A stretch of 64,000 bases of DNA from Fragilariopsis cylindrus CCMP1102. Its lineage: Eukaryota; Bacillariophyta; Bacillariophyceae; Bacillariales; Bacillariaceae. The stretch is taken from NCBI GenBank assembly GCA_900095095.1, contig FMBT01000435.1, positions 47,085 to 111,084 of the forward strand. The letters run 5' to 3'. The notes below the pieces were generated by a model. That model saw only the letters and a list, made by a program, of their open reading frames with translations, had not been told where the DNA came from and made no database searches. The translations under genes and the position numbers were made by a program. The first letter of the stretch is position 1, and each line of letters opens with the position of its first letter. This document shows positions 725-62,454 of this stretch, in pieces.

Positions 725-3700
725 TCAAACCAGTAATAACATATCCAATAAACTTTTTGCTTCGGCGCATAATTGACTTTGAGTTCTATCATTTCAGGAG
801 AAGTTCCGTATTTGTTTCGTAAATCACTTTCTTTTGCACGACAACGATTGTATCGTTTTTGAGCTAAATCAATAGGTGTTCCAACTAATCTTTAATGCCC
901 CGTTCACTTCTTCTGTTTGGATCAGCACCCAACCGTAATATTCTATGCAACAAAGATGTAGGAGCCATAAGTTCAATAGCAGCATACAATAATGAAGTAC
1001 CATTTAAACCTCGAACATTTGATGTTAGCTTTAATGATGACGATACGGATGATGATGACGATTGTTCCTGATTGAACCTTTCAATAGTTTCAATCTGAGT
1101 TTTCAATGAATCGATAATCTCTTTTTTCTTGATAGTGATATAGTCTCTCTCTGCACTACGATGCTTTGCAACAATACATATCACACCAACTGATTCGACA
1201 CGTTTTGTTATATCAACCGAAAATGAACCATCCTTTGGACATTTCTGTTCAATTTCGTTTAATGTAAATACAAACGATCCAAGCTTATTGGAGGAAAATT
1301 ATCGTCCAGACTACCCTCGGCAATGTCAATCACCAGCCGTCGATTATCCAACGTAATATTGTGGTTGTTATTTACTCTACGATGAAATAACTCCTCGTCG
1401 TCGTCAATTTTGTCAGAGTATGATATATAGTCAGACATTTTGCGAACGGGTAGATTACCCAACTCCGAGACCGGAAATTGAGTTCGTACTGATCCACTGA
1501 TGACATTACTTCTCCCAGAAACTACACTAGATTCGAATTCCAACTCAAGATGTTTTAACTCAAAGGAGATGACAGTCCAGGATCTCAAAGATAAAGCCTT
1601 CTCGATCAAGTGGGTACTGTTAATGTATAACTTCAACACTTTCTTTTTAGCCTCAAGATCATTCTCCGTATGAATCGCACTAAACTGAGTGGAAAGTTTG
1701 ATTTTCTCGATCTCCCTTCCAACGTAATTATACTGTTCACGTAGAACGGAATCAAATGACGCCTTGTTAAGAGCAGGCCCATTTTCGAGCACATATATTA
1801 AATCCCTGCATGACTTATTCTGGACAGCATCCAGTAGAGTATCTTTAATAGGTGCCGCATGATGAGTTATACTAGGCATTTGTACTTGATTCTCTGTTTG
1901 GGTGGTTGGGTGTTGCTGGGTGGAGTGTTGCCATCCCCTTGATGATGAGCCCAGCGATTGCTTTGATTCGGATTTCCTTCTATTGTGATAACTCGACCCA
2001 TTCATGTTCGAATTAGATATACTTCTATTCGGACCTGACCTACTTTGATCCATTCTTCGATCCACACCAATACAATTCGCACCTCCGGCCCATCCGTGAT
2101 AATTATTGCCAGTCCAGCTCCCCTTAGTGTTCCAATTGCTATCAGATACAGATTTGGATTCTGTATTTGATGATGAAGGATGATTATTTTCTAAAATGAC
2201 ACGCAACATCTGTCTCTTTTTGCTTGCATGAAGGTAGAAAGATTGAAGATCAGTGTGGCTTGACACCGTCTTGCGACGTTCTGCCACCATTACAGCCATC
2301 ACTTGCGTTCCGACTTTAATCCTGACATCCATAGATAATTGGCCATCGGCAAATTTTGAGAAAAGAACGCATTTCGATCGTAAATTCTGCCCATATTCTG
2401 TTCTAAAATATCCCCCGAGAGGTCGTGTTGCATCGAAAGCAACTTCGAACGTTGAATTAACCGTGGGGTCAATGAACGATGGACGGGCCGTGGGATGAAT
2501 AAACGAGGGGCGTCGTATATCATTGTTGCTTACCGAGTGCGGGAATATAACCTGTCCTAGATCGACGTTCTTCGTCACATCAATTGATCCGTGTGAAGTC
2601 TTTCTTTCAGGTAAACTATTCTGCGACCCTTTCGAAGAAGCCTTGTATGGCGGTCTCTTACTGGAAGAAGCTTGGACACTTCTGTCTCCTTGCTTCGCAC
2701 CCCTACAAAAAATATCATCCCATTCTCCTTCGCATCCACAACCTTCACTACATCGAACACCAAACATGCCATTATACATGCGATGCTTCTGATGTAACGA
2801 CCACATATCAATCAATCTATTGGTCAACTCTGCGTATGTTCCTGTTGGATATTCCTTCTTCAATAGAGGAACAAATCTTGGTACAAAATATTGAAAGATT
2901 CCGCAAATTCTTCCTTCTAACTCTTGTTCCGTCTCGACATTCTTCTTGCCCTTTATCTCTTGCTTTGAAATATAGTCTTTCACTACATTAGCAACCAGTT
3001 CGGGTAGTTGTGAGATACAATTACAACTGTCACCACAAGTTTCTCCAAATAATAGTTTGTGCTGCACCCACATGCTGGACAATATAGATCTTTCGTGTAT
3101 TTCCGTATCTTTGTAGTCAAGATGGACAAGAGGTCTTAATTTCTTTTCAAATTCACCAAATCGTTGCAAAGGATTTTTTACTCTTGTTTCATTATGACTA
3201 CTACCACTTTCTTGTTCATTATCATCGAAGTTGCCTGAATCTACATCTGCTAGAGGAAACTCAGCGTCGTCGTTTGTTGGGGTTACGGCGTGCGATTCGT
3301 TATCGTGAAGGTCATCTACAGAAGATTCACCTTGCACATCCCACCTCCGCTTTTTGACATTGACTGTCGCTACAGATTTCCCTTTCTTATCATCACCTCG
3401 ATTTTCCTTGCAATCATCGGATTGATTTGTCAACAATTCAGAGGGAAGAGGAGGAGGTGATGGTAGTAGTGGTGGTGCATTCAATGTCTGGTAAAAGTTT
3501 GGATCGTACGGCTTACCATCACGTCTTCGAAGATTTTGTATCAATCGATTTGGTACACGTTCTAAGTTGGCATACCTTGAAAGACAAATAGTCATTATGA
3601 CCAATTCCTTAGATTTATCTTTCATAGCTTCAGTTACAATTCTTTTCAATTCTGATGCATCCGATATTTTTAGTCCATCAATTGATAGTATAGCACATCC

Positions 3701-5428
3701 ATTTTCACATGCTTCATGTCCACCTAAGGCTTGAGCTAACCCTTTGTCCGGTACAACCCGGTTCATCCAAAGTCCACCCGTGGATTGTAGTTGCTGCTGC
3801 TGCTGTTGTTCCCCACCAACTATAGAAAATTGTGAAAATTTTATACCAATCACATCTTTATGTATATCTAATTCAACGTCAAGTTCCAACGAATAATCGT
3901 CATCTAGTATTCTTTTAAGATTAACAAATGCAATCCGTTTTCGTACATAAGCTTGTGTATGATCTTTCAACATGTCCAAATATTTTTCTCTTCCTTTATC
4001 ATTATCATCGATGACGATACAAGAGACACTGCGAGCTTCCAGTAAATACGAACTACCATGAGGATCATTCGGATCATGATCAGAGATATTCACCATCCAG
4101 GTAGAACTATTATTTCGGATATTAGTAGGTATCTTGTTTGATACAGGTTTGATGACATTGTAGCAAAACTCATCACGGGTAAATAGTAGCTCATTGTCAT
4201 GGTAACCACCAGAATTTGTTGGAATATATTTTGGAAGAGTTTGTCGAATACTTTTGAATTTGATTTCATCTACTGTCCCGCTAACCTTCGACGACGATAC
4301 CAACACTCCATTCGTGCTAGATCCTTCATGGAGCGCTCTCGTGAAGTGAACCATCGGACTATCATCCCCATCAGGACCTGAACTACTAATAGTTTTTCCT
4401 TCAGTATCTTTGGTGTGACTACAAGCAATAGCCACGCCATCGTTGTTACCGCAAGATTCTGAGGAAGAGGATGCTTTCGTTGTCGTTTTTTCCTGTATTG
4501 TAGGATGATGATTTCTTTTTCGTTTACGAATATTCTTCCATCCTAAATTATTTGATGTTTTATTCTCCGTTGTTTCATTTTCATTTATATTTCCATCCAT
4601 ACGACGAATAGGATAAGATTTCACAAACTCTAGATCTTCCGCTGCTGTTATGTTTTCTAATAAAGTTTGCATAATATCATTTTCTTCAGATATGGATATT
4701 TTTTTATCAAGTAAATCCATTATGTATTGTTCCTCCTCCTTTTCTTCGGCACACGTAACTAATTCATCGAGTCGATTCATTACCCAATCTTCCACTAACT
4801 GTTGTTGTTCGTCATTCATCCACCATGGTTGTTCCTTCTTTTTTTCCTTCATTTTAGCATGGACGACTACATCATTGGGATTTCTTGGTCTTGGTCGTCG
4901 TCGCAAAATCGTATTAGTAAATTCATCGTCAGAAGAGTCCAAAACATAATCATCACACTCACCGCTGTCACAAGCAGACGACGATGATTGCTGTTGTTGT
5001 TGTTTTATTTCTTTGTCTTTGTTATTGCTACTGATATTATCTTTTTCTGGATTATTATTCTTTTCTCGTGAAACATCACTCGTCATCGTCATTGTTGGTT
5101 CTAGTTTGGTCGATTCTGGTAATGTAATTAAATTAGTAGTGTTGTGATCACTATCAGGAGTCTTAGCAGAGGAAGCTGCTGCTGCTACTGCTGCTTGTAC
5201 TAGTATTTGTATTTGAGCTTCGAATGGTGATGCTTGGGGTACTGGGCCTGCTGAATGTGTTTGTGTTTGTATCTGTATTTGAGCTTCGGGTGGTGCTACA
5301 GCTGTAATTCCATCCAGATTAAATACTGCTCGAGGCCTCGAACCCCCCGGTCTGGGTCGACGTTGTGGCCGTGGTCGTCGAGCATGACGACCACCTTGTG
5401 CACCTTGTGGAGGTGGTATGTCTGCCAT
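725..5428 (-). CDS. Paralogue A of a large PDZ-like / Cys-rich / ankyrin protein
   Basis: Function unknown. The product would be about 1,568 residues, starting at the ATG at 5428. In order it has a basic Arg/Pro N-terminus (RPRPQRRPRP), a long low-complexity acidic and Q-rich region, a first PDZ-like fold (about 3590-3840, with ENGCAILSIDG), a cysteine cluster (about 2680-3080, CGDSCNC to CSEGCGCEGEWDDIF), a second PDZ-like segment (about 2190-2450, LGGYFRTE) and ankyrin-like pieces (about 1730-1830 and 900-1020). It aligns along its length with the gene at 16274-22798. The frame breaks at three short runs (1295-1298, 891-893, 778-780); each is restored by one extra base and each restored stretch matches the paralogue. 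It has no intron where the paralogue has one, and it stops just before the region that in the paralogue carries a CCCH-like finger. A protein-protein scaffold is a reasonable inference. Confidence 0.8.
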
Positions 5429-5884
5429 GATATTTGATTATGGTTTTCGATTGTTATTATTTTATGTGAGCTATAGAAGCGAATAACATCGTCGGTGTTG
5501 TGCACACGGGGTAACGTTACGGTACTGTGTATGTGATTTGAGAATGTTCAGGAGAAATTAAATTTCCTCCACAAGAAACAACGCCACAAGCCGTATTACT
5601 TTCACCGTAGTATGGAGATGTCACGCTAAAAAGAGCCTAAGGTAGTCTTTAAAATGTCAGTCGTGTACATTTGTAGCCTCGCGCAATTTTTTAAATTCAT
5701 TATTTTTAATAAATCATTTTTATCTACTGTAATTCACAAGAACAAGAATGACTCATAAACAAAACAGCAACAAGCAAACAGGAACATCGACGCCAATCGG
5801 AAGGATTGAGATAAAGACTTACGATATACTAGTAGCATCAATCGTTATTACAGTTTCGTTTCATTGATTCTTTTTTGCTTCATC
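5429..5884. promoter_or_regulatory. Shared head-to-head promoter region
   Basis: About 456 bases between two divergently transcribed starts. It is AT-rich and carries no convincing coding sequence or RNA gene. Presumed to hold both promoters; I see no clear TATA box or repeated element. Confidence 0.4.
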
Positions 5885-6415
5885 ATGATATCACATTACC
5901 ATCAGATGTTCCTTCGGTACGCCCAAACTCATCCGAAATCGTTAGGTCTTTCATTACTAGGTGGTACGACGTTGATGAGTATCATTCTTTTTAAGATTAT
6001 TGATGATGGACATGAAGATTATAACTACGCCAAAAAACGTAGCAATGATCCGAATAATCAAACAAAAATGACCATGGATGGAGCACGATTAATTGCCATG
6101 TTAGAGAATGCGAAAGAAAGTTCATCAACAGAAAATGTAGAGAATGCTGTCAATGCACAAGAACAATTTATGTTACCGGGACGACATCGGAATGTACCAA
6201 AATTTATGGATAAAATTGATCGACGAAGTTTAGAAATACTGGAAAAACAACATCACAAAATTGATAATGAGGATGATGATGAGTATGAAGAGGACTATGA
6301 TTATGAAGATGATGATGATGATGATGTTGATGATGAATGGAATAGCAGAAGAAAATTAAAAGAAGAAGGATCAGGATCAGCAGGAGAAGAAACTGCTATA
6401 GATTTTTGGAAATGA
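5885..6415 (+). CDS. Small single-span protein with an acidic tail
   Basis: A 176-residue protein. The first ATG in the open frame is at 5885; an earlier TTG codon is not a likely eukaryotic start. A hydrophobic stretch near residues 18-37 (SLGLSLLGGTTLMSIILF) would make one membrane span, so the remainder probably faces one compartment as a soluble tail. The middle is charged and helical, and the C-terminal third is a run of Asp and Glu (EDDDEYEEDYDYEDDDDDD) followed by a basic patch. There is no intron or frame break. I do not recognise a family. A mitochondrial or ER membrane anchor is possible, but nothing in the sequence decides between them. Confidence 0.65.
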   Translation: MISHYHQMFLRYAQTHPKSLGLSLLGGTTLMSIILFKIIDDGHEDYNYAKKRSNDPNNQTKMTMDGARLIAMLENAKESSSTENVENAVNAQEQFMLPGRHRNVPKFMDKIDRRSLEILEKQHHKIDNEDDDEYEEDYDYEDDDDDDVDDEWNSRRKLKEEGSGSAGEETAIDFWK

Positions 6416-7127
6416 TCATTATATTTGATTTGTTCGTTGTCGTTCTGAGTGAGCCACGTTATGTAAGGCATAATAAATAATACACTTCACTTTCTCAGTC
6501 AGTGTCCAAAAACATACATTATGTTTGTTTATTTGTTTCGGTTTTTGCATTGTCTCGGAAATTAAAGTTTTGCAAACGAATAAGAAATAGCAAGAAAAAT
6601 CTGATATGCACAACGTCGTCGATGCGTCTATCTTGATTCCTATGTGGGTTGTCAAATAATTCCGGGCATGTGTGTGTGAGTGTGTGTAACTTACATCAAG
6701 GATCATTCAATGCTACTACTTTTTATTTATATTGTTGTGCCGCCATCGCTAGTTTACACTGCAATAATGCTGGCCATAACTACAGGTATTGTAGCGCCAA
6801 CGTTGGCCTACTAGTTTGGTACACTGAAAACATTTCTCTCATTACAAGATTAGGATGGGGTATAAAATTATTATTATCCCCGTTCCCAGTCCCATCTACA
6901 GTATCGTAACGCTCTAATAACGAAAACAAATATAACACTAGTTGATACAATAATAACAGATAAAAAATGTATTGTTACTTTAGTTATTATACATGTGATC
7001 TATTCGATCATTGTTGCTTCCCTATTGCGCACCCACCTTAGCGTGTCGCGTCATAATTTTATTATGTACTCGTATATGTTCTTAGTGTTTTGTAATCGTT
7101 TCTCGTGTAAATAGATGTAAATTTGAA
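6416..7127. other. Tail-to-tail spacer without a gene
   Basis: This lies between the 3' ends of a plus-strand and a minus-strand gene. It holds short GT-rich stretches (TGTGTGTGAGTGTGTGT near 6667) and no credible open frame. It presumably contains both 3' untranslated regions. Confidence 0.5.
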
Positions 7128-10100
7128 TTATTTCGTGGTCGTGATTGTCAATGTTTTAGGTGGATGCTCCTTCTTTTCACTATGATGAGAAGAATGACGG
7201 CATTTATTCCAACTTTTTGAATATTCAAATGAGAACCGGCTGCCATAACCGACCATATGACGAAGTACCTCTCGTATACTGTCTAAGCTGCATGGCTTTG
7301 GTAGATACCCAGCCGCACCATTGTCAATACAATATTGTCGGAATGAATCCGAAACATGAGCAGTGACAAAAATAACTTTTGGGATGGGGTGTCCACCATC
7401 ACGTTTGTTGAGCGCACGACAAGCTTCAACGCCATCCATTTTTGGCATTTGCATGTCCATCAGGACAAGATCAAAAGGTTGCTTGGCTTCCATCTCGACG
7501 GCTTCCAAGCCATTATTGGCAATGGTAACCATCGTGACACCACATCGATTCAGAAGTCTCTTCATGACCTTTTGGTTCACAAGATTGTCTTCGGCAATTA
7601 ATATTCTTAGCCCAGAAATCAGTTCATCCCCTTCATCGCCAAGAGCTCTCGAACATGCCTTGGCTGGATTTCCTAATAGTTCTTGGCCAAAGTCTCCCAG
7701 ATACTGGATCAGGACAGAGGGGAAAACCTCCATTAGAGAGCGCCAATGCTTCTTTGTCTTTTCTATTCCATATTTAGGACCAAATGTTACCAAACACGAC
7801 CTAGAATTTTCCTTTAAGAGTTCGAATGATTTTGCATCGTAAAGATCTTCCTGTACTAAACAAATATACGTCATTTCTGGCACTAGCGCCCCTTCCGAAC
7901 TGATTAGTGTAACGAGATCGTCCATATTATGGAAATGAGTACAGTTAACCTTGAACGCAGCAAAGATATTTTGAACCAACGTAGTTTGCGGGTCAGTTTC
8001 ATCCGCCACAAAAAGTATCGACGTCGAACCAAGCCTGTCGGAGAACTCTTTAATGTTAATAGGACGATCAACGAACGGAATTTCCACTTTAAAATCCGTC
8101 CAGCTTCCAACATCACTGTCTACAGAAATCTTACCATCCATGGCTTCGACAAGCTTTTTTGTGATCGAAAGCCCTAGACCGGTGCCCCCAACTGTGTTAG
8201 TTAAACCAGTTTCGGACTGACGAAAGGGCTCAAAGATCTTATCAAAGTCCTCCGATCCAATTCCTTTGCCATAATCTTTGACGGAAAGGACCAGCATTTT
8301 TTTGTCATCGGCAATAGTAACATTGAAATCGATTCTACTTTCTTCGTTACTAAACTTGATGGCGTTACCCAGCAAGTTGTATAGAATTTGTTGGACCCGT
8401 CGACTATCCGTAGCAATGCATTCTGGGAGGAGAGGATCAAACGTAGCAATAATGTTCAAACTTTTGTCAACAGCTATCTGGCTTGTCTTCACTAAATGAA
8501 TTACTGCACCAAGAGTTTCCTGAAAATTTACTTCTTTAACAAGAATTTCGACTTTCCCGCTCTCTAATTTCGAATCTATATGTGAGAAGAAAACAAAAAT
8601 GGTTAGCAACAGCAAGCGATGGTAAGCTGGTGTTACAAAATACTATTAGGCTGATTCTACATATCGTAGTAATAACTTACAATCGAGAACATCATCTACA
8701 ATCTGTCGTAGAAGTTTTCCACTAGATACGATCATTCCCATGCTCTCCTTTTGCATTTCATCAAGTTCCGTATCTTCAATCAAGCTCGACAAGCCGATGA
8801 TACAATTCAATGGCGTCCGAATCTCATGAGACATGGATGCAAAGTGTTGAAGTTGCATTGCAGACGAAGACGCAATCTTGTTATTGGCTATCGCTAAATC
8901 CGCATTTAATGCCTCAAGACGAGATGTTCGTTCCTTGACCTTCATCTCGACTTTAAGAGTCATGTCGACGTATTCAGCTGAAGGACGCTCTAATGGGTCA
9001 CGTGCGAAGCATTCGTTCATAAGTTTCGCCACCTTTGATGGACAATGTAATGGAACAGGTGGGCGTTTATTAATTTTTGGATTACAAACTTGTTTTACAA
9101 CATCGCTATACCTTTCTCCCTCATATGGTGGCCGACCAGAATAAATTTCATAAATAACGATACCAAGCGCATAAATATCTGATTCGGGGCTATTCACACA
9201 GTTCCCCTGTAGTAACTCTGGGCTCATCCAAAACGGTGTACCAACAGCTCCAATATGTGTTTTGCCGCCTGTGATACAAAACCAGATCAATATACAAGTT
9301 GGGTGAGCCAATTAGTGAGAAATATGAAGAATGCTGTGCTGTGCTGTGATGTGTTGTGCGAGACAAAATGAAACAAGAGAGCGACTAAGACTTACTCAAA
9401 CCAAAATCAGTGACCTTAGCACAAAGATTTTCATCAACTAATACATTCTGACTCTTCAAATCGCCGTGTATAACTGGTGGATTGGCACTATGCAGGAATC
9501 GTAATCCTTGTGCGACGTCTTTGAGTATATCTAAGATCTGTTCTGGTTTTAATACAATCGAATCATCTTGTAATACATCAAACAAACTTCCGTATCGCAT
9601 GTATTCCATAATTAGCATCGGATCATCTTTCCGTGACGGCATGACCGCTCCCATAACGGTTGTAATACAAGGATGTCGAAGGCGTGCCAACTGACGGATC
9701 TCTGCTACAAACTCCGACTTTAGATATAATTGAGTGTTATCGTCTCCTTTGTTGTCAAAGCAAAATCCTAACACACCACGTTTTTGATTGTATTGGCCAC
9801 TCATCATTACTTTGGATTGCATCATGCTGTTCATGATTGTATTTGGAGCACGGCTTTTCATACCACGATTCATCGGACCAGTTATTGCATTACCTAGAGA
9901 GAGAGAGAGAGATGAATGTGAGTGAATGTCGTCGGTTAAAACTTGAATATGCAAATAATGAATTGTGTTACAATGATTATATACTCACCGTTTTCAACAT
10001 CTTCGAGGATGCTACCACCACCACCCCACGAATCATTAGATGCGGACCATTTACTACTAGATTTACGAGGATCAAACAATGAATCACGTTCAGTTCCAGG

Positions 10101-11915
10101 AGGGATCACACGCTTGACAGCAACTTGTGTACCTCTATATTCTGCTAATAGAACCAGTCCGAAGGTACCCTGACCGATAATCGTAGCAGATCCATCACCG
10201 AAGTCTAATTCATCAATTTTAACAATCCATACCGAATCGGATTGTTTACGTTTATATTCAACGTAGTAATGAACAATGATGCCGACCAAAAGAAGTATTG
10301 GTAGAATAATACTCGGTATAAAGATGTACAATTGAACGCATGAATCACCGATCGGTACTGAATCAATACATTGGAGTTCATTGGGGATTTCACATGGTCG
10401 GCATAAACATTGGAATCCTTCACCACAATCCAATCCAATAACAGCACATGCAGTGTCAACTACCTCTTTCGATTTAAGGAAGGACCCCTCCGGACATGAA
10501 ATTGCATCATACAATTCAGCCGAACGGATACATCTCCATGTTAATGATTCTGGGTCCTTCTTGATAAAACCAACAGCTTCTTGCATACTACGTAATTGCA
10601 TATATGAAAGTGACGTTGTCCATTCAGCGTATTTGCCATTCGTTTGTGCCTTCAGAGCCTTCACAGCAATATCATGTGTAACACCACAGGGAATTGGTCC
10701 AGATGTATATAATTCTGATAGTGGTATTTGATTACAAGCAACTGTTGTTGAATTGATATTAGATTGATAACATTGATCAACAGATATACCGATATCAGCA
10801 TACGCTGCAACATTCAGCATAGCCTGTTGTACTTCTCTTGATACATCCTGACTAACATGCGTCAATGCTGCTATATTCCATTCAGCATATAATTCTGTTG
10901 AACTTTGAAATGGGAATGGCACACCATTAATTTCTAAACCTGGTTGTGGATTAATAATCTTAAATTTATCTAAATCAACAGGATTACCATCAGCATCCTT
11001 ACTTCGTTCAAGTTGATCAGTTCTAATAAAGCCCACATCAAAATCACCTGCCAATAATCCTTTCACAACTAATCCTTGATTACTTGTAAATACAAGTTGC
11101 TTTGGATCATCTAAATAATTCATACCGTTGTCAATCATTGCCTTAAATTGCATCTGACCTGATCCTAATCCAGAAATAGATGCAGCAGCAACCCTTTGAT
11201 CTTTTAAATCTAATACAGAATTAATATCATCTCGATTAGACAATGTTGCAATCACACCACCAAATTTTTCTAAATCATATATCTGACCAGATACTTTCCT
11301 TCGTGATACCTGACTTGCTAATGAATATGATTTATATTCACTTTCAATACAGGAATATGCGGATGGATTCACATAGATGAAATCAACTTTTCGTGATTCG
11401 GCATCGGAAAATAATGTTAAAAAATTTAATGGCTTTAATTCAAATTCAATGGGTGGATCAAATTTTTGTCCAGCAGTGGCTGTTAAATATTCATTAAATG
11501 TGGCATTAAATTCAGCATAGGCTGCATCAAAGCCACGTATCGCTAACACACCCACTGTATACTTTGGTTTGATCGCAATCGCACCTCCCCCGCCCACTGC
11601 CTCGTCTGGATCCCAATTGGTTGGTATATGACATACTTTATTATTATTATTATCGTCTTCGAGGAGGTTCATGACCTCATTATCATTCACAGTTACTGTT
11701 ACAGTTTCTGTCTCATTCACACCAGAATCCTCCTGTAAGTAACGGTGAGATTGTTCCGCCCAGTTGCTGTTGTTGTTTTGATAGTAGTTATTTGTTTTAG
11801 CCTTTATAGAAGACGTTACTACGCCTGCTACTAAAGGTGGTGAAGATAAGCATAACGTCACCACAACAACGAAAGCTAACGAATACAAAAGTAAAAAAGT
11901 TTCACCACCGAACAT
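7128..11915 (-). CDS. Receptor-like hybrid kinase: phosphonate-binding-type domain, Ser/Thr kinase, histidine kinase, receiver
   Basis: Four exons (11915-9989, 9893-9396, 9268-8681, 8575-7128) joined at clean GT-AG sites give 1,486 residues with no frame break. Residues 1-31 are a signal peptide. About 119-385 resemble periplasmic phosphonate-binding proteins of the PhnD type. A Cys-rich stalk follows, then one membrane span near 528-550. The kinase domain runs from about 570, with the Lys of VAVKRV near 600, HGDLKSQN instead of the usual HRD, a DFG and GTPFWMSPE, which suggests the TKL group. A histidine kinase follows with the phospho-acceptor His in MSHEIRTPLN (about 956), an N box (LLGNAIKFS), and glycine boxes (DYGKGI, GGTGLGL). 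The receiver has its Asp in LMDMQMP (about 1378) and its Lys in LPKP. It probably sits in the plasma membrane and senses a small external ligand. The ligand is inferred only from the fold; phosphonate itself is not shown. Confidence 0.9.
8576..8680 (-). other. Intron 3 of the hybrid kinase gene
   Basis: 105 bases, donor T/GTAAGT, acceptor TATAG, phase 1. Joining restores the conserved DVLDYSKLESG segment of the histidine kinase dimerisation domain, which confirms both splice sites. Confidence 0.9.
9269..9395 (-). other. Intron 2 of the hybrid kinase gene
   Basis: 127 bases, donor A/GTAAGT, acceptor CACAG, phase 1. It interrupts the activation segment just after DFGLS. Confidence 0.85.
9894..9988 (-). 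other. Intron 1 of the hybrid kinase gene
   Basis: 95 bases, donor G/GTGAGT, acceptor TAG, phase 1. A (CT)n tract of about 14 bases sits directly before the acceptor. Joining gives a continuous glycine-asparagine-alanine peptide between two parts of the kinase N-lobe. Confidence 0.85.
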
Positions 11916-16273: not shown

Positions 16274-19200
16274 TTATTTTCGAGGACGGCCGTAGTGGTG
16301 ATTGTGATCGTGATGACGACGGTGGTCACAACGTTGCTCGTTCCGTTGATAGTGTTGCTCATTGCGTTGATGATGATGAGGAAATCGACCATTTTGCTGA
16401 CCCCCTCTTTGCTGTGAGATCGGCGGACGCCATTGACTGTGTCTGATAAAAACTGTGTATCGTAGATTATTCAGTGCTTCAACTTTCGAACGAAACCAGC
16501 TGGTACCATATTCGCTTACGTATCCAGATTTCAAAAGATTCTGTGCGTATACAATCGTTTTTGACGAGTGGTCAATATGTGCTGCTGTCCACCATAATTC
16601 AGATCCGAGAGGCATAGACTTGAAGTCCACTACATTTTTTTTAAGTACTGGTAACTGATTCCAAGGTGGTATCGTTGGTAACGATTCAGTCTTCAATGGT
16701 GAAAAATCATCATGCCAAAAACGGCAACTCCGAGTTTTGAAAAATCTACAGGAATTGCCATCCTTACAGCGTCGCATATTTCTGTTGTAAATGACCCAGG
16801 TTTGAGATTTGAGAAACGGTAAGATCGGGCGTGACAAGTTGTCGGATTGCTGAGATGCTGAATCATTGCCAGATGACGATTGCATGACTTCGCTTGTATC
16901 CGTATCCGACCTCTTAGGTATCACAACGCACGATCCTCCATTTTGCACGTTTGGAATGACCTTTATTGACTCATTACCGGATACTGAGTGTATGCCTTGC
17001 CTTGCATCTAAGCTCCTACTATGAATCACAGCGGATGATGCAGCGTGTGAATTCGTTGTGGACACATCAGGATGCTCTGTGACATTGTTCTGCAACATTA
17101 CTACTAACAGCTTAGCTTTATCAAATCGCTTTTGTTGTAATCCAATATCACCGGTGGGAATCTTCTGTATCTCTTCGCTCTTCTTGTTTTCTGTAGCATT
17201 GTCTATTTTCCTATTTTTCTCCTGAGCTCGAAGAAAATTATCTTTGGCCCGATGGAAATTCCTCTGGGCTAAGCTCAATGGAGTTCCGATCCCATTGTGG
17301 CTACTAATTCTTGGATTAGCTCCAAGCCTGAGCATTCTTTTTACAAGATCGGTATCATCCACAAGTTGGATAGCCGCATGTAGCATGGATTTGCCGTCTA
17401 TACCAATAATGTTTGCAGTTAATCTAGCGTCTGGAGGAGTGGTTGGATCTTTATTGAACCGTTCGATGAAATCGAGCTGGGTATTTAGTTTTCTCAATAC
17501 TTCTATCTTTTTACTCGTTATATATTCTTTATTAGCACCGCGCTTGTTTGCAGTAATGGTTGCGAAGCCACTTGATAGCTCACCAGAGCTGCTTGAAAGT
17601 GCTCGCGTGTATTCTATCGAATTTCCATCAGATAAACATTGTTTTTCAATATCATTAAGAATGAAATTGAAAGAGCCGAGCTTTCCTGTTGGGACAAGAT
17701 CTGGAGATGGACCCTTTTCGAGATCAATAACAAAATCACGCTGTTCAAGAACATAGTTACTATTATTATGTACTGTGTAGATAAGAGGGGTGTCAACATC
17801 ACTATCACTGTAGCTTATATGCTGAGAAAACTTTCGAAATGGTAGGGTACCCTATAACAGAAAATATGATGAGTTGAGCAGGTTAAACAAACTACGAGCT
17901 AGGCTCGTCAAGAACGAACGAACAAACAAACAAAAACAAAAGACTTACCAAATCTTCTTTGTTATCATTTGCATTTCTTAGCTTTACTGCTACGATCCCT
18001 CCGAGCATATCAATTGTGTTTTGAGTCCGTTCGAGATCTATATGTCTCAGTTCTATACGAATAGTATACCACTTCTTTAACGACATAGTCTTTTCAGTTA
18101 GGTTAATTGTGCTGAGGTATATAGACAGGACGATATACTTTGCATTCAAGTCATTCTTTTCTTTTGTTGCATTCGCACGTCCAGCTAATTTGCCAATTCT
18201 TTTGAGTTCATTCCCAACAAAGTCATACTGTACCTTCAAAACTGATTCATATCCATTTAAATCTCTTATGGCTCCATTTTCCAGAGCTTCTATCACGTCT
18301 TTACAAGATTTGTTTTGGATAGCATCAATTAACATTTCTTCGGTAGAAAGTTGTGGGGACATTTGATGTGTCTGAGTTTCGGTCGTAGTCTCGACTCTGC
18401 GTACATTCGATGCTTCGTCCTGAAGAAAGAAGAATTCTTCATTCTTGGGCATTGAAAATACAACTTTCTTCGATCGTTTTCGCTTTGTTTCGTTCGTTCG
18501 GATTAAAGGTTTGCTCGGTGCTCGTTTGGTATGTCCTGGTTCTGACGTACTAATAAAAGTCGTCCATTCAGGAAGATCAGGGTCGTGCGTACTTCTTGGT
18601 GAAGTAGACCTTGGTTTATTTTTGCCAGCTGAGACAGACGTATTATTTGACTCTGTAGTGTGTGTAAATCTAGGCATTGTTGTTGGATACTGGTCGGCCT
18701 TCGATGTGCCCCCTCCAGCCCATCCATCATTGATTGTATTAACCCATATGCCGAACTTATTCCAGCTGTCTATATCTATATTATTATGAGTACTAGCAGG
18801 CGAAACACCTTGGTTTTTCATTACGAGACATAATGTCTTTCTGGATCTTTTTGCATTATCATAAAACTGCTTGAGCTCAGTATGGTTTGAAATTTTATTT
18901 ACAGTATTACCAGTAATGACTGACACGATAGATGTGCCATTCGTTATTCGTAGATCCTTTGCCAATTGACCGGTTGCGTACTTTGAATAGATCCGACATC
19001 TACTTCCTCCGTTCGGTAGAGATTCAGTTCTGAAATACCCACCTAATTCGGTGGAGGTCTCAAAGGCAACTTCAAAGGGTTCTCTGCTAGGAGTGCTCAT
19101 ATTCGTAGTCATAGTTGCTAATCTTTTTGGTTTTTTGTTCCCATTTGTATCATGAGCATTTTCGCTAATAGGCGTGTTCCTCTTCTCTCCCCGTTCACTT

Positions 19201-22200
19201 TGAATCGAAGTTAGCGCGTGCGATGTAGCAGCTGGAGCCTTTTTCTTCTTTCTTGGAATTGCTACCCCACTTGTACTTGTTTTAGATTGCTTCTCCTGAT
19301 CAATCTGACTGGTGGGTCTTTTCTTGGACCGCTTCTTCATTGATGCTGTAAACTCCTTGGCCTTAGCCTTATCGCCCCTTCCAAAGATTTGATCCCATTC
19401 ACCTTCACATGCACACCCTTCGCTACATCGCACGCCATACATACGATTCGCCGTATGTGTGGGCCACATATCGACCAATCTATTGATCAGCTGATCTTGT
19501 GTTTCACCTGGATACTCTTTGTTCAATAGAGGGAAAAACCGTGGAGCAAAGTAGTGGAAGATTCCGCGCGTTCTCCCTTCCAACTCTTGTTCCGTCTCGA
19601 CGTTCTTCCCCTTCTTCTTTTGCTGGGCGACATGCTCTTTGATTACGTTCACACACAGTTCGGGAAGTCGCAAGAAACACTCGCAATCGTCACCACAAAC
19701 AGCATCCTCCCCAAACAATAATTTATGTGCTGAAAAAATACTAGAGCAACTCTTTTTTACGTTTATCTTGGTATCCTTATAATCCAAATCGATAAGAGGT
19801 TTAAACTTTTTCTCAAAATTCCAAAATCTTTTTATGCCGTCATTGGCTTTTCTTTGAACTTTTTCTGTCTCCCCATTTTTAACGGTAGTTTCGTCAATTT
19901 CATCGGTAGCTTCCTCATTCACGACGTCGAATGTATCAATTTTTTTATCGTGATCACTCTCCGATTCAACTTCTCTGCCTATCGTCTTTTTGCGCTTAGA
20001 TTTCCTCTCGTCTGATTCTTGTGCATGCAGGTCTTTCCGTTTCTGTTTTGTTTTTACGGGAACTTTCGGATGATCAGCTTCTTTCTCTTCTTCTTCGCCG
20101 TCGTCGCCATCGACATCGTAGTCCGGTTTGTTGTCTCTCGATTTTTGCAACTCTATGGCCCGATACATTCTATGATTTTTGTAGACGTCTACTTTGTACG
20201 GGCGACCATCCCTCCTTCGAATATTTAATTTCGAAAATTTGGGAGCGTCGCTCAAGTCTGCGTATTTCGATAAGCAAAGTGTCAATTTAGAACAGAAGCA
20301 CTCCGACTTCTATCACCGCATCGCATTTTCGCCTGCGATACAATCTCTTCCAACTCGATTGAATTGGCAATTTCTTTATCGTTGACAGCAATGATGGCAC
20401 AACCCATTTCGTACGCACCCTTACTACCAAGATCTCGTGCCAATGTACTAATCGGATATATAGCTTTGATGTACGCACCTAAACTGGCAACATGAATCGT
20501 AGAAAATCGAATTTCCATAGATTCCTTTGCTATATCCAATGACATGTCTACGACCAAAGATTCATCATCTTCAACTAACCGTTTCAGATTGACCCGTTCG
20601 ATTCCCGCTCTTACGAAGGATTGTGTCTTCTCTCGTAACAGATTCAAGGCTTCATGTGTACCTTCCGCCTCCAATATGTACGAATCATCACTAGGATCGT
20701 CATTTTTCGAAGATGAGAGTGTAACTTTCCACGTTTGGTCGTTTCGTAAACCATCGATTTGTTTCTCCACTTCAACGACTACGTTCAACATAAATTGTGA
20801 CCGAGTGAATAATAAGTCATGAGTCTCGTTACAGAGGTATTCACCGGATTCTTGAGGTATCCATTTTGGGATCGTTTGTCGGATACGACGGCGTTGAATT
20901 TCAATTATTTCCGTTACATTGGATTGCTTCATTTCGTCGTCTACATCATTTCCGCCATTAGTAGTAGTTACTGTAATATCTGTATTTTTAATGGATGTTA
21001 TACCCCAAGGCAGTCGCAAATGTTTTTGCTTTTGCTGTGGTATTCGAGTTTCATTCCAACTGGAAAGTATACCGACGTTATACGATTCTTCTAGTCCTTC
21101 CCCTGTTATAGCAGTAGCAGTAGCAGTAGCAGTAGCAGTATTATAAGTCACTAGTGACGGATGCATTTCTGTGAAGTAGTCTGTGTCTTCAGAGGCCTGC
21201 ACGTTTTGTAGGAGCCGTTGCATAACGTATCGTTCTTCAGAAATTGTTGCAATATCATCGAAGTCCTGTTCATCATCATCCTCGTCATCGTCATCCTCGT
21301 CTCCTTCTTGCTTACAGCCGCTATTATTTTGGGTTGTATCTACTTCTATCCAGTCATCTTGTTCAATACCATCTGCTTCTTGGTCGTTGTCCCCTATCTC
21401 TTCTTCGTTATCGTTATTTTTACCACTATGGGTAGCAGCTTCCCCTTCTATGTTGTCTTGTTCCCTGGCATCGTCGTCGCCATCGTCGTCGTCTGACGAG
21501 ACAGCGGGAGGAATTTTCTGTTTGTTCTGCTCACCTCGTTCGATCTGATTTCGTAGTTCTCGCATAATTTCTATTTCTTCTAATCGACTCTTAATTGATT
21601 CGTCGAGTTGGTTCTTGATCGAATCTCTTTCATCTTTGCTATTACTAGTACTATTACTACTAGCAATACTAATAGTAATACTACAATTGCTATTATCGCT
21701 CCTCTTTCCACCCGTTGTACCTGCATCGTCCGGTTGCGCCGCTGTATGTGTAGCTGTAGCTTTCAATGATGACGACGACGACGATTTCTTTATTGTAGAG
21801 TTAGGCAAAGATGCACATGCATAAGCAGCAGTAGCAGTAGCAGCGGCGGCACCACCACTAGTAGTGGTAGTAGCAGCAGAGCCATTCGAAGGATGGTGAC
21901 GATTGCTGCCGCCCTGCTGCGATTGTTGTTCGTAAATGATATGATCCAATGGAGGCTGTTGTATTTGCTGGTAGATTCGTTTATCTTCAGTCCGGGATCT
22001 ACGATATATTTTTCGCATGGTGATATGTTTTTTAGCTTCAGCATGATACTTTACAGGTAAAGTTGCTAATACTGGAAACAACACATCACCTTGAAAGTCT
22101 CTGATATTCTTCAGACCTAACGCATCTCGCTTCTTTACTTCTTGTAGGTACAATAGTACAGCTTGATGGATCACTTTTTTCTTAGGAAATTCAGCCATAT

Positions 22201-59604: not shown

Positions 59605-62454
59605 TTAGAACCAGGTAGAATGACGATCCATAATCCCAGATAGTCGTTGCATTGCTTTACCTCCTTTCGATTTCCCTCCTTTTTCATTTGTAGTAAGATT
59701 ATCAATTGTATCAACAATTTGTCGAAATGTTGGACGGGCATCAATATCGGCACTCCAACAGTCCCTAATAAGCTTATTCAATTCAGATGGCCACTTTTTA
59801 CTCAATCTTGGACGGCCTCCACCGTGAACGACTTGTTCATAGAATGTATCCCTACCCAATCCATTGAATGGTCTTTTTCCGGCATTCATTTCCCAAAGAA
59901 TTATACCGAAGGAATATACATCAGCTTTATGATTGTAAGGCAGTCCTTCCGCTACCTCTGGAGCCATGTACCGTAATGAACCAGTCTCACCACTCATTTC
60001 ATATTTTTCATTTGTAGTCGGATCGGCATTCTCTAACATCCGTGATAGACCGAAATCGATAAGTTTAACTTTCCCATCTAATGTGAACCCGATATTATCT
60101 GGTTTCAAATCGCGATGTAATACCATACTACCCGGAATTGCCTGTTCGTGACAATACTGTAGTGCACATGCTAATGATCGTGCACAACGTAGTACATCTA
60201 GATAGGGCAATGATTTCTTCCTCCAAAATCGTCGTCTTCTATCACGGATTCTGGTATCATATCCTAACATTTGTGTTAAGGTTCCACCATCCAATCTTTC
60301 TAGAACAATAAATCGTACTTTCTTACTTGTCCATCCAGCACCTATCACCGAAACAACATTCGGATGATTCAATCTTGCGTGGATAGCTGGCAAATCGAAT
60401 CGAAAAGAAACACAAAAAGAAGAAAGAAATCGTGTGGCGTGAGCAAAACAAATAATAGCAAAGACATAGGATTTAAAATAAATAAATAAATAGGAGAAGC
60501 AACCGATGCGATCCCCCGTCTCACTATATATACACTAAAAGTGAACGATAGAAAAGACTTACCAACTTCTGCTTCAATTTCATTTATTGCTAATGCAGTA
60601 TCTTGACATTCTGGACGTAATGTTTTCACAACAACAGGCTTGCCATCAAATATAGCAGTATGTATCCACGAATTACCACCATCTGTTAGATATTCGACAT
60701 TCAATAATTGACGCCATTGTAAGTCTAATCGTGCACCTGTGATGGATGTTTTATCAGCACGTTGATAACTAATAGCGGAATTATTCTGGGTTGGTCTATA
60801 TATACCAACAGCTGTACCTTTCGATCCGCGTACACCATGTTCAGATCGTGATGCACCATCATTACTACCATCTGTTGCAGTTGCAGTTGTTAATTGATTA
60901 TTATTACTATCAACCAGAATAGTTTTTTCATATGTACCATCCCCACCACTAATACCACTACGATTATTATCAATTAATCCATCCAATGCTAATGCATTCA
61001 CTGATGTCACAGCGGCACTTAATGACATATGAATCAAAAATTCTACAGCCGATGGTACTAAAATAATACGTCGGATTGAGAAATAAATTATTGTGATATT
61101 TGTATTGGATGCCTCGTGACAGACCGGTACCGCCACCGCTGTTCTAACATTACTAATACTCATCCGTAATGCTTCTGCACCATTCTGTGTATGTGCTGTG
61201 ACCCACACAACATCATTGGCATCCTTGGCACGTTTACATAAGGCCGGTGATAATCGATGTGTACGTTCATTCGATGTATCACCATAATATACTTCTACTA
61301 AATCTTGTCGTACCGAATCTTCTAATGCAGTGGGACGTAAATGTGAATTTGTTAATTGATGTGTTTTCGGACCAGTCCGTAACCACATTTCAGCAATATC
61401 AAATCCCATCACCTCACAACTTGCTGCTAAGACAGCCTCGACGGACGAGGACGATTGATGGAATAATTTATTATGATACAATGATCGACCCATTTGTATT
61501 AAACTAGCTGTATTAGTAATAGCAGCAGCCTCCGTTGCAATTGCTGCTTCACCTGATTGACCAATTGTTGCTCCACCAATGGCAGCTGTGACTGCAGCAA
61601 CTGTGGCCGCGTCAATATTATTATTATTATTATTATTATTGTTGTTGTTATTATCTATTCCCATTTCTGGTTTTGCAGCGATAGTTGGAGATAAGGCTAT
61701 TGCTGGATCGTCGTCGGTGGGTAGAGCTGCTGCTGCTGCTGTAGTAGCACCCAATTGTTGTTGTTGTTGTTGTGCAGCTGCTGTTGTCGTTCTTGTATTT
61801 CTTGTTTCCGTTGCATCAAATTTACTATTGCAAAAGAACCATCCGTACTTCCAATCGTCCATGGAAAGGAAGATGGATCAGCGGATTGTGGCGTTCGATT
61901 ATTACTATTATTATGATAAGGCGAGAAGCTATTGGATGATTGTAGTTGTTGTTGTTGTTGTTGTGGTGATGGCATTGCTGGTCCCAGTCCCATCATTGGC
62001 ATCGACATCGGAGGTCCGCTACCGCCACCGCCCCACTAATACTACCTAGTTGTTGTTGCTGTGTTGTTGCTGCTGTTGAGAATGAATTCGTGATTGACGT
62101 TGATGTTGCGGATGCTGTTGTTGTAAATACTCGGACGGTGCAGACTGTGGTGGTTGTGGTTGTTGTGGAAGAGTCGATGGAGGCGGCGTCAATGGATGCG
62201 ATATAGTATTCGGATTATCGCCTCTGATTTGTTGTTGATTATTATTATCATTATCATTTCAATATTCGACGACGACGAAGTAGAAGACACAGAGTAGTAG
62301 TAGCAGAGTTGATTGGTTGCACTGCGGGTATAGTATCACCATCACCTCCTCCCAGGCTTCCGTTTTCACTTCCATTATTCGGATGAAAAACAGCGGCGTC
62401 ACCGTCACCCATTTTATGTGAAAGTTGTGGTGAACCAGACATCACAATATTCAT
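59605..62454 (-). CDS. GAF-like sensor / TKL-type protein kinase
   Basis: About 892 residues in two exons, split by a 176-base intron (60387-60562). The N-terminal 300 residues are Q/N/S-rich low complexity and contain five single-base frame breaks (near 62292, 62257-62259, near 62060, 62031-62034, near 61760), each restored by one extra base. A GAF-like sensory region follows (SLIQMGRSLYHNKLF, GFDIAEMWLR, VRTAVAVPVCHE), then a Ser/Thr kinase: VVVKTLRP for the ATP Lys, HRDLKPDN, DFGLS, SLRYMAPE and DVYSFGIILWEM. The order of motifs is complete, so it should be active. HRDLKPDN and the MAPE segment are of the plant-Raf/TKL kind. It is likely cytosolic or nuclear and senses an unknown signal. 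The start MNIVMSGSPQ is the first ATG in frame. Confidence 0.87.
60387..60562 (-). other. Intron of the GAF-like/TKL kinase gene
   Basis: 176 bases, donor G/GTAAGT, acceptor CCAG, phase 1. Joining gives EAEVAIHARLNHPNVV, restoring the helix C and the following conserved HPN of the kinase N-lobe. Confidence 0.88.

Follow-up and report, generated by a model that had tools for sequence, protein, structure and literature searches.

A predicted diatom receptor combining a bacterial-receptor-type ectodomain, a TKL-type kinase and a hybrid histidine kinase in one chain

Gene structure and domain order

A four-exon gene lies on the minus strand (11915-7128) of the analysed window, a 64,000-nt stretch of contig FMBT01000435.1 from the diatom Fragilariopsis cylindrus CCMP1102. 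In the splice model, the gene runs from an ATG at 11915 to a stop codon ending at 7128 and encodes a protein of 1486 aa in one open frame (Table 1). The clean exon joins described in an earlier sequence-only reading are borne out, as three GT..AG introns of 95, 127 and 105 nt leave a single frame. The domain order is signal peptide, periplasmic-binding-type (PBP) ectodomain, Cys-rich stalk, membrane helix, TKL-type kinase, coiled coil, HisKA, HATPase and receiver. PF12974, protein kinase, HisKA, HATPase_c and Response_reg, the families proposed for a domain search, were all matched, and every Pfam domain match in the protein exceeds its curated cut-off. The splice model and these domains agree with the proposal that a receptor domain, a Ser/Thr-type kinase, a histidine kinase and a receiver share one chain. 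Hydropathy reveals a single stretch resembling a signal peptide and a single strong membrane helix (530-548), and the predicted topology accordingly matches the expectation of a ligand-binding domain outside the membrane. The ectodomain is thus part of a membrane receptor rather than a stand-alone exported protein working with an ABC transporter.

Table 1. Features of the receptor gene, in window coordinates.
Feature	Position	Strand	Basis
Exon 1: signal peptide, PBP ectodomain, Cys-rich stalk, membrane helix, start of kinase N-lobe	9989..11915	-	Splice model
Exon 2: kinase, from beta3-alphaC insert to DFG	9396..9893	-	Splice model; flanked by GT..AG introns
Exon 3: kinase C-lobe, coiled coil, start of HisKA	8681..9268	-	Splice model
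Exon 4: end of HisKA, HATPase, linker, receiver, stop	7128..8575	-	Splice model
PBP type II sensor domain, bacterial-receptor type (aa 116-455)	10551..11570	-	PF12974 (aa 139-370) and motif alignment
Cys-rich stalk (aa 462-526, 9 Cys)	10338..10532	-	No Pfam family
Single membrane helix (about aa 530-552)	10260..10328	-	Hydropathy
TKL-type protein kinase domain (about aa 575-910, introns included)	8964..10193	-	Pfam, motifs, PDB matches
HisKA dimerisation/phosphoacceptor domain (aa 947-1011; H956 in FASMSHEIRTPLN), intron included	8556..8855	-	Pfam, motif
HATPase_c (aa 1061-1172), N, G1, F and G2 boxes	8073..8408	-	Pfam, motif
Linker (aa 1176-1325), common to paralogous HNOBA histidine kinase	7614..8063	-	No Pfam family
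Receiver domain (aa 1329-1442; E1333/D1334, D1378, T1409, K1431 by motif)	7263..7604	-	Response_reg (Pfam), motif

Because the gene model is based on sequence alone, two or more adjacent genes, a receptor kinase and a hybrid histidine kinase, could in principle have been read as one. The exons end at residues 642, 808 and 1004, inside the kinase (575-910) and HisKA (947-1011), so that a split at any of these points leaves broken domains. Separate neighbouring genes were rejected on these junctions, and separate transcripts for the kinase parts, which had been named as an outcome that would refute the fusion, are unlikely for the same reason. The gene is also kept whole in a second haplotype contig (1489 aa, identical intron positions), and an annotation artefact is highly improbable. 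In the other haplotype intron 1 measures 147 nt and contains no frame break; if retained there, it would keep the frame. The haplotypes differ at 24 amino acids, two of them in the DHp-CA region and none in the receiver. With dS at 0.050 and dN at 0.0075 over 1487 codons (dN/dS 0.15), the receptor gene is under purifying selection between haplotypes.

Other origins of the locus were rejected. Three equal-scoring places for PF12974 in the genome do not indicate a recent gene duplication; one is the window locus, another lies on C385, presumably the other haplotype (92.9% over 8.7 kb), and the third, on C280, is the redundant end of a contig (99.98% over 10 kb). Bacterial contamination was rejected because of the introns, the existence of a second haplotype and the 27 matches to silicon transporters that the assembly contains; the host genome is that of the diatom. 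A giant-virus or phage origin was dismissed, as viral contigs, searched for close relatives only, held no confirmed relative of the ectodomain, and no PHROG was matched. The kinase-histidine kinase part matched 103 records of a phage collection, and the 20 listed all start at query residue 298 or later, beyond most of the kinase.

Class and probable ligand of the ectodomain

The ectodomain matches PF12974 with an E-value of 5.4e-17 (62.4 bits, cut-off 27), which upholds the label "phosphonate-binding-type" as a family assignment. The phosphonate in that label is only the Pfam family name. In a tblastn search, 16 of 72,556 plasmid records were matched. Thirteen of the matches are annotated: eight as sensor histidine kinases, one as ttrS and four as PhnD/SsuA-type proteins, and two of these four, when translated (597 and 605 aa), have histidine kinase motifs by eye. 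Among Pseudomonadota, 35 of 299 genomes were matched. Nearly all matches below E 1e-7 (28/29) lie in frames of at least 455 aa, and a weak tail (E 7e-6 to 9e-4) includes eight frames of 311-422 aa resembling plain binding proteins. The domain scan covered 20 of the 30 excised Pseudomonadota loci and found an output domain in 18 (10 histidine kinase, 5 GGDEF, 2 SpoIIE, 1 GerE); one of the other two has PAS only and one has no domain.

Homology to bacterial PBP receptors extends along the length of the ectodomain, including the terminal W..Y segment, with 22-41% identity depending on the method; an insert near aa 375-425 is absent from the bacterial rows of the alignment. GLGSGQMQ (aa 249-256) aligns to SLGGFQMQ of the bacterial receptors and SSTELYAEW to ST.LYPEW, each with some residues replaced. 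The strict signatures, [AS][FL]GG against GLGS in the diatom and S[ST]x[LP][YM]P[EDN]W against SSTELYAEW, are therefore unmatched but partly kept. Of the 30 loci recovered with the diatom query, 27 carry the second signature, against none of 20 binding proteins.

Two profiles were compared, one of transport binding proteins and one of bacterial transmembrane receptors, in which TtrS-type sensors are attached to a histidine kinase, GGDEF or SpoIIE, with the diatom sequence in neither. The ectodomain scores 150.9 bits on the receptor profile, below every in-sample receptor (minimum 236.3), and 16.8 bits on the binding-protein profile. In a tree from which eight rows had been left out beforehand, a clade with support of 100/99 holds the diatom ectodomain and 53 receptor rows but none of the 14 binding proteins. 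The receptor side of the first tree (support 96/99) includes one unrelated long-branch binding protein, while a 347-aa row found with the diatom query (L203) falls on the binding-protein side. By profile and tree, the ectodomain groups with bacterial PBP receptors of the TtrS type and not with transport binding proteins. Two TtrS-type rows, one annotated (L040) and one not (L043), fall in a 28-row clade (98/97) without the diatom ectodomain, the placement of which relative to this subclade is unsure because its branch is long (1.86 in the trees).

These results bear on the proposal that the receptor senses phosphorus status by binding phosphonate, phosphite or phosphate. The Pfam name and PF12974 score are consistent with such a role, as are the PtxB proteins, which are the best solved relatives of the family profile, and the ability of another diatom, P. 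tricornutum, to use 2-aminoethylphosphonate as a phosphorus source (PMC9765203); the part of that source drawn on here names no PhnD-type receptor. The ectodomain alone had no PDB match with phmmer, and PtxB appears there with profiles that include bacterial receptors. However, the STS-H residues by which PtxB and PhnD bind phosphite or phosphonate (PMC5700983) read G, L, G and Q in the diatom ectodomain, with none kept, against majorities of S (14/17), S (13/17) and H (15/17) in 17 binding proteins. Two bacterial receptors of the same class sense sulfur oxyanions instead: TtrS senses tetrathionate (PMC5408782) and ThsS thiosulfate (PMC11293645), with sensing assigned in both to the PhnD-like domain. 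With the STS-H pocket lost and both the profile scores and the tree on the receptor side, a phosphorus ligand is unsupported; phosphonate was discarded as the leading idea, and a phosphorus sensor is quite improbable. Since the ectodomain lies outside the TtrS subclade, its ligand is not fixed by this kinship; it is most likely a small anionic solute outside the cell and, on present evidence, not phosphonate. The gene neighbours of a close bacterial receptor (L128) gave no clue to the ligand.

Intracellular domains and proposed mechanism

The kinase is assigned to the TKL type by its match to PF07714 (PK_Tyr_Ser-Thr, aa 700-909; E 4.9e-47, 160.8 bits) and by its PDB matches, of which CTR1 is best, followed by TAK1 and Roco4, with tyrosine kinases lower. 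Pkinase is also matched (aa 698-907). The motifs comprise a G-loop (581-588), K601, HGDLKSQN (785-792), DFG (805-807) and SPE (824-826), and an insert of about 100 aa separates beta3 from alphaC. The catalytic motif is HGD (785-787) in place of HRD, as had been noticed before, which makes the kinase non-RD; in addition, the activation segment from DFG to SPE is 22 residues long, against 28 in CTR1.

Catalysis could be weak, since the kinase is missing the arginine of HRD and some 5-6 residues of the activation loop, yet HGD alone is no sign of a dead kinase, because the ATP-binding Lys, the catalytic Asp, Lys and Asn, and DFG are all kept. The TKL domain might have no catalytic activity in the cell and act as a structural relay, leaving a hybrid histidine kinase only. 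HGD and the short activation segment would fit such a role, as would the order of receptor, membrane helix, kinase, coiled coil and enzyme found also in receptor guanylyl cyclases, where the kinase homology domain relays the signal to the coiled coil and catalytic end. Against it stand the ATP-binding and catalytic residues, kept except for the HRD arginine, and the identity of the kinase outside the insert between haplotypes: the three differences within aa 591-910 all lie inside the beta3-alphaC insert. A purely structural role is possible but on the doubtful side.

The predicted hybrid histidine kinase has the HisKA H box, the N, G1, F and G2 boxes and the receiver Asp, Thr and Lys, in keeping with the diagnostic residues previously reported. 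A pseudo-receiver suspected by eye in the linker is unsupported, as a profile comparison with four receivers, made with thin profiles, gave a probability of 0.1%, and the linker is left unassigned. HPt matches occur in two contigs of the genome (C657 and C98), and the copy on C657, which carries an HxxKG motif (HVIKG), is a candidate phosphorelay partner.

The preferred explanation, with a probability of roughly 0.6, is a ligand-gated dimeric receptor that would drive a His-Asp phosphorelay, with the non-RD CTR1-like kinase as a second output or conformational relay. The protein would be a single-pass cell-surface receptor whose ectodomain, a Venus-flytrap (type II PBP) module as in TtrS/ThsS-type bacterial receptors, would for that reason most probably close around a small anionic solute. 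Closure would be transmitted through the Cys-rich stalk and the membrane helix to the dimer, in which the TKL kinase, directly behind the membrane, is probably coupled by the coiled coil to the HisKA dimer. The ligand-dependent rearrangement would switch autophosphorylation at H956, and the phosphoryl group would pass to D1378 of the receiver and on to a separate HPt and response regulators. Control of the short-loop kinase probably comes from this rearrangement and not from phosphorylation of the loop; the kinase may phosphorylate Ser/Thr targets or the histidine kinase region, or act as a conformational relay.

As for the proposed one-protein path to both phospho-Ser/Thr and phosphorelay signalling, the domains for it are present and a dual output is plausible from the sequence. 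A stronger reading, in which a bacterial oxyanion-type sensor was acquired by a diatom and coupled simultaneously to a His-Asp phosphorelay and to a CTR1-like Ser/Thr kinase that is active, is rather unlikely. If true, it would join in one polypeptide the ETR1-like histidine kinase and CTR1-like TKL kinase that are separate in plants, in a receptor guanylyl cyclase layout with a histidine kinase replacing the cyclase.

No other histidine kinase-kinase fusion was seen among the relatives of this kinase and 12 frames of other histidine kinase loci, in which Pfam found no kinase domain. The loci extended 1.5 kb past the match and only relatives of this kinase were sought, which means that the search could have overlooked a fusion to a distant kinase. 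Where relatives of the kinase share a contig with another HisKA place, the nearest is separated from it by about 100 kb. A guanylyl cyclase with a related kinase was also considered and rejected, as the two sets of matches, where they share a contig, are separated by about 10 kb or more.

Dissolved solutes have to be detected at the diatom cell surface, and the small-molecule receptors known from diatoms are few. Here a bacterial receptor module, more than a transporter relative, appears to serve as the outside of a eukaryotic two-kinase receptor, which would reduce the question of what eukaryotic histidine kinases sense to one binding experiment. The Pfam label "Phosphonate-bd" is no guide to a phosphonate ligand, and the STS-H residue test separates the two classes.

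Comparison with known systems

TtrS/ThsS-type sensor histidine kinases and other bacterial PBP receptors share the homologous ectodomain and the lost STS-H site with the diatom receptor, which lies outside the clade holding TtrS proper. The scanned bacterial receptors lack a TKL kinase, and bacterial PBP receptors lack the Cys-rich stalk; the diatom protein has both. In five annotated plasmid receptors the response regulator is separate, whereas the diatom receiver is in the same chain. Within the same genome, an HNOBA hybrid histidine kinase (C30/C80) shares 37% identity over 565 aligned positions across the histidine kinase, linker and receiver; its input is HNOBA, where the diatom receptor has the PBP domain, membrane helix and kinase instead.

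Ser/Thr-histidine kinase fusions already have precedent in fungal group X, which likewise combines a Ser/Thr-kinase-related domain, a histidine kinase and a receiver in one chain. Group X hybrid histidine kinases carry GAF and are not known to have an extracellular PBP domain. In the diatom protein, no GAF was found with Pfam at E 0.001, a PBP domain and membrane helix being present instead, and the kinase is CTR1-like and directly behind the membrane helix. Group X is listed for fungi, algae and amoebae (PMC6944256).

Two further systems resemble the diatom receptor in layout or components. The plant ethylene pathway pairs ETR1, a hybrid histidine kinase, with CTR1, a TKL kinase. Like the diatom receptor, it combines a membrane hybrid histidine kinase with a CTR1-like kinase, and CTR1 is the best solved relative of the diatom kinase; in plants these are two proteins and in the diatom one, and the sensor differs. 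Receptor guanylyl cyclases consist of a flytrap ectodomain, one membrane helix, a kinase domain, a coiled coil and an enzyme, and thus share the layout without being homologous end to end: theirs is a type I PBP with a cyclase, the diatom's a bacterial type II PBP with a histidine kinase and receiver. To our knowledge, a bacterial receptor ectodomain on a Ser/Thr-histidine kinase fusion is unreported.

Gene structure and domain order

The receptor gene lies where the sequence-only reading had placed it, on the minus strand at window positions 7128–11915, with three GT..AG introns that leave a single frame of 1486 aa and a stop at 7128. The same reading had proposed a bacterial-type ligand-binding domain (here called a periplasmic-binding-protein, PBP, domain), a kinase, a histidine kinase (HK) and a receiver in one protein, and Pfam-A recovered this layout with every domain above cut-off. 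The architecture is thus confirmed, and it is unusual. The N terminus is signal-peptide-like, and hydropathy gives a single strong membrane helix at aa 530–548. Exons end at residues 642 and 808, both inside the kinase, and at 1004, inside HisKA, so that no split of the gene yields whole domains; judged from its sequence, the gene is likely to be expressed as one transcript.

Exons and domains of the receptor gene, and frames joining a PF12974 domain to a monooxygenase
Feature	Position	Strand	Basis
Receptor exon 1	11915–9989	minus	splice model, GT..AG introns
Receptor exon 2	9893–9396	minus	splice model, GT..AG introns
Receptor exon 3	9268–8681	minus	splice model, GT..AG introns
Receptor exon 4	8575–7128	minus	splice model, GT..AG introns
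PF12974	aa 139–370		Pfam-A, above cut-off
Protein kinase	aa 698–909		Pfam-A, above cut-off
HisKA	aa 947–1011		Pfam-A, above cut-off
HATPase_c	aa 1061–1172		Pfam-A, above cut-off
Response_reg	aa 1329–1442		Pfam-A, above cut-off
PF12974–monooxygenase frame	L011:4234–7029		Pfam
PF12974–monooxygenase frame	L012:5099–7897		

The assembly (67.9 Mb, 818 contigs) contains 27 matches to the silicon-transporter family, and the genome is therefore that of a diatom; the receptor gene is real and eukaryotic. Contig C385, which is collinear with the window (92.9% over 8.7 kb), was taken as the other haplotype. Its copy encodes the same receptor (1489 aa) with identical intron positions, and the two differ by a dS of 0.050 and a dN of 0.0075 (ratio 0.15). 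Eleven of the 24 amino-acid differences are in the N-terminal 115 residues, three are in an ectodomain insert, three within aa 591–910 are all in the kinase insert, and none is in the receiver. Intron 1 of the other haplotype is 147 nt long and open in frame, and retaining it would lengthen that protein by 49 residues with no stop codon. Window 1754–11755 recurs, 99.98% identical, at the end of contig C280, which makes this a redundant piece of the assembly. Two long frames flank the receptor locus (window 1259–5437 and 17892–20309, minus strand); by eye they encode similar proteins rich in Asn and Ser, and over 474 bases of one frame the DNA is 69% identical to the other.

Bacterial relatives and ligand of the ectodomain

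Profile scores and trees agree in placing the ectodomain among receptors, and its predicted role is that of a receptor domain rather than of a transport protein. Against a profile built from 55 receptor domains of bacteria, from which the window was left out, it scores 150.9 bits (best binding protein 68.8, the profile's own receptors at least 236.3), and on a profile of 17 binding proteins it scores 16.8 bits (receptor median 69.2). The first tree, of 76 rows, split receptors from binding proteins with a support of 96/99; the exceptions were L173, an unrelated long-branch binding protein on the receptor side, and L203 (347 aa, found with the window as query) on the binding-protein side. From the second tree eight rows were left out (from the binding-protein set five with long branches; from the receptor set two with long branches and one near-duplicate). 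Here, the window fell in a clade of 54 (100/99) with none of the 14 binding proteins. The subclade of 28 rows (98/97) that includes the two TtrS-type rows does not contain the window. The window branch is long (1.86), so that its exact place among the receptors is tentative. Sampling calls for caution, as 80 loci (20 in the tree) came from patterns based on four bacterial sensors, and 30 Pseudomonadota loci were found using the window sequence itself as query.

A tblastn search with the ectodomain matched 16 of 72,556 plasmid records, annotated as sensor histidine kinases (eight), PhnD/SsuA-type proteins (four) or TtrS (one), with three unannotated. The seven that were translated are all 577–617 aa long and contain histidine-kinase motifs by eye; the five annotated ones among them all adjoin a response regulator, and their other flank holds a cytochrome gene in three cases and ttrABC in one. 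The search found matches in 35 of 299 Pseudomonadota genomes (41 listed in all). Below E 1e-7, 28 of 29 matches were within frames of at least 455 aa and the remaining one in 268 aa, while eight of the 12 weaker matches were in frames of 311–422 aa that resemble plain binding proteins. A domain scan of 20 of the 30 cut-out loci (L176–L193, L196 and L197) found an output domain in 18 (10 HK, 5 GGDEF, 2 SpoIIE, 1 GerE); of the other two, one had PAS alone and one (268 aa) nothing further.

In PtxB, PhnD and their relatives, an STS-H motif grips the oxygens of phosphite or phosphonate (PMC5700983). Of 17 binding proteins, 14 carry S at these columns, 13 carry S at the third position and 15 carry H. 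Across 117 receptor rows, the first is A (84) or S (20), the second F (93) or L (21), the third G (113) and the fourth mixed (H 18, Q 9); the residues in the window are G, L, G and Q. A pattern typical of the receptors, S[ST]x[LP][YM]P[EDN]W, occurs in 27/30 window-found Pseudomonadota loci versus 0/20 binding proteins, and the window reads SSTELYAEW, lacking the proline of the strict pattern. With the STS-H pocket lost and the ectodomain of receptor type by profile and tree, the phosphonate-binding, phosphorus-related role towards which the sequence-only reading leaned is not supported. Two bacterial receptors of this class are reported to sense tetrathionate (PMC5408782) and thiosulfate (PMC11293645), respectively. 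A small anion is our guess for the diatom ligand, made from the family and not a result.

Elsewhere in the assembly, contigs C608 and C29 join a PF12974-type domain to a flavin-binding monooxygenase in a single frame of ~930 aa. Contigs C356 and C470 encode a short PtxB-like binding protein (L010:4090–4746, L013) that retains an STNGHLMP stretch, so both pocket types seem to be present in this diatom. In L010, an 825-aa frame after the PtxB-like gene is transposase-like by eye.

Cytosolic modules and proposed mechanism

The kinase N-lobe lies ahead of the Pfam match, with a G-loop at 581 and the ATP-binding K601; beyond these, some 100 inserted residues separate beta3 from alphaC and shorten the match. 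Its closest solved structures are Arabidopsis CTR1, then TAK1 and Roco4. The G-loop, K601, the catalytic Asp, Lys, Asn and DFG are retained, HGD indeed replaces HRD as previously noticed, and the activation segment from DFG to SPE has 22 residues versus 28 in CTR1. Non-RD kinases are generally not controlled through activation-loop phosphorylation, and these features of the predicted kinase would fit control by receptor rearrangement. A coiled-coil-like stretch, KVEMKVKERTSRLEALNADLA (by eye), runs directly into HisKA. The window has one more kinase-related match (59716–60378, minus strand), 32% identical to this TKL kinase and next to an unassigned frame at 60369–61877.

The HK, linker and receiver share 37% identity over 565 aligned positions with a second gene of the genome, which has an HNOBA input. 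HNOBA is the domain beside H-NOX in soluble guanylyl cyclases. On both contigs C80 and C30, an HNOBA–HK–receiver gene (C80:470370 and C30:12186, plus strand; L021/L022) lies ~5 kb from a divergent H-NOX gene (C80:465160–465663 and C30:6975–7409, minus strand), and the two might work together in sensing nitric oxide or gas.

HPt matches in two contigs (HxxKG motif verified in one) and 32 receiver matches in the assembly would let a phosphorelay continue beyond the receptor. Most likely, a ligand outside the cell would shut the ectodomain flytrap; the stalk and membrane helix would carry the rearrangement to the receptor dimer, and the kinase module and coiled coil would convert it into a switch of histidine phosphorylation, passed to the receiver and HPt. 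The kinase may be either an extra Ser/Thr output or a relay.

Comparison with known systems

On sequence grounds, the receptor is predicted to be a hybrid histidine kinase of a eukaryote whose ectodomain is of the bacterial receptor type and into which a TKL kinase is inserted. Kinase–HK fusions as such are already known: fungal group X, listed for fungi, algae and amoebae, combines HK and receiver with a domain related to Ser/Thr kinases (PMC6944256). For Phytophthora, the kinome paper describes PAS-type hybrid kinases and lists a single protein kinase that has a receiver domain; it also mentions an HK of T. pseudonana with PAS and GAF (PMC3019232). A diatom GPCR survey reports seven candidate receptors of diatoms with other PBP-like ectodomains (PMC3727952), so that such modules have a precedent on receptors of this group. 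Among the matches listed, titles and abstract openings of the open full-text literature gave no description of the ectodomain, kinase and HK combination, though a eukaryotic-HK survey cited in PMC6944256 might mention it. Two parallels, which are analogies without whole-length homology, may be drawn. Receptor guanylyl cyclases have a parallel layout, with a cyclase where the histidine kinase stands here. Two kinds of kinase that are partners in plants, ETR1 and CTR1, have their analogues here in one chain.
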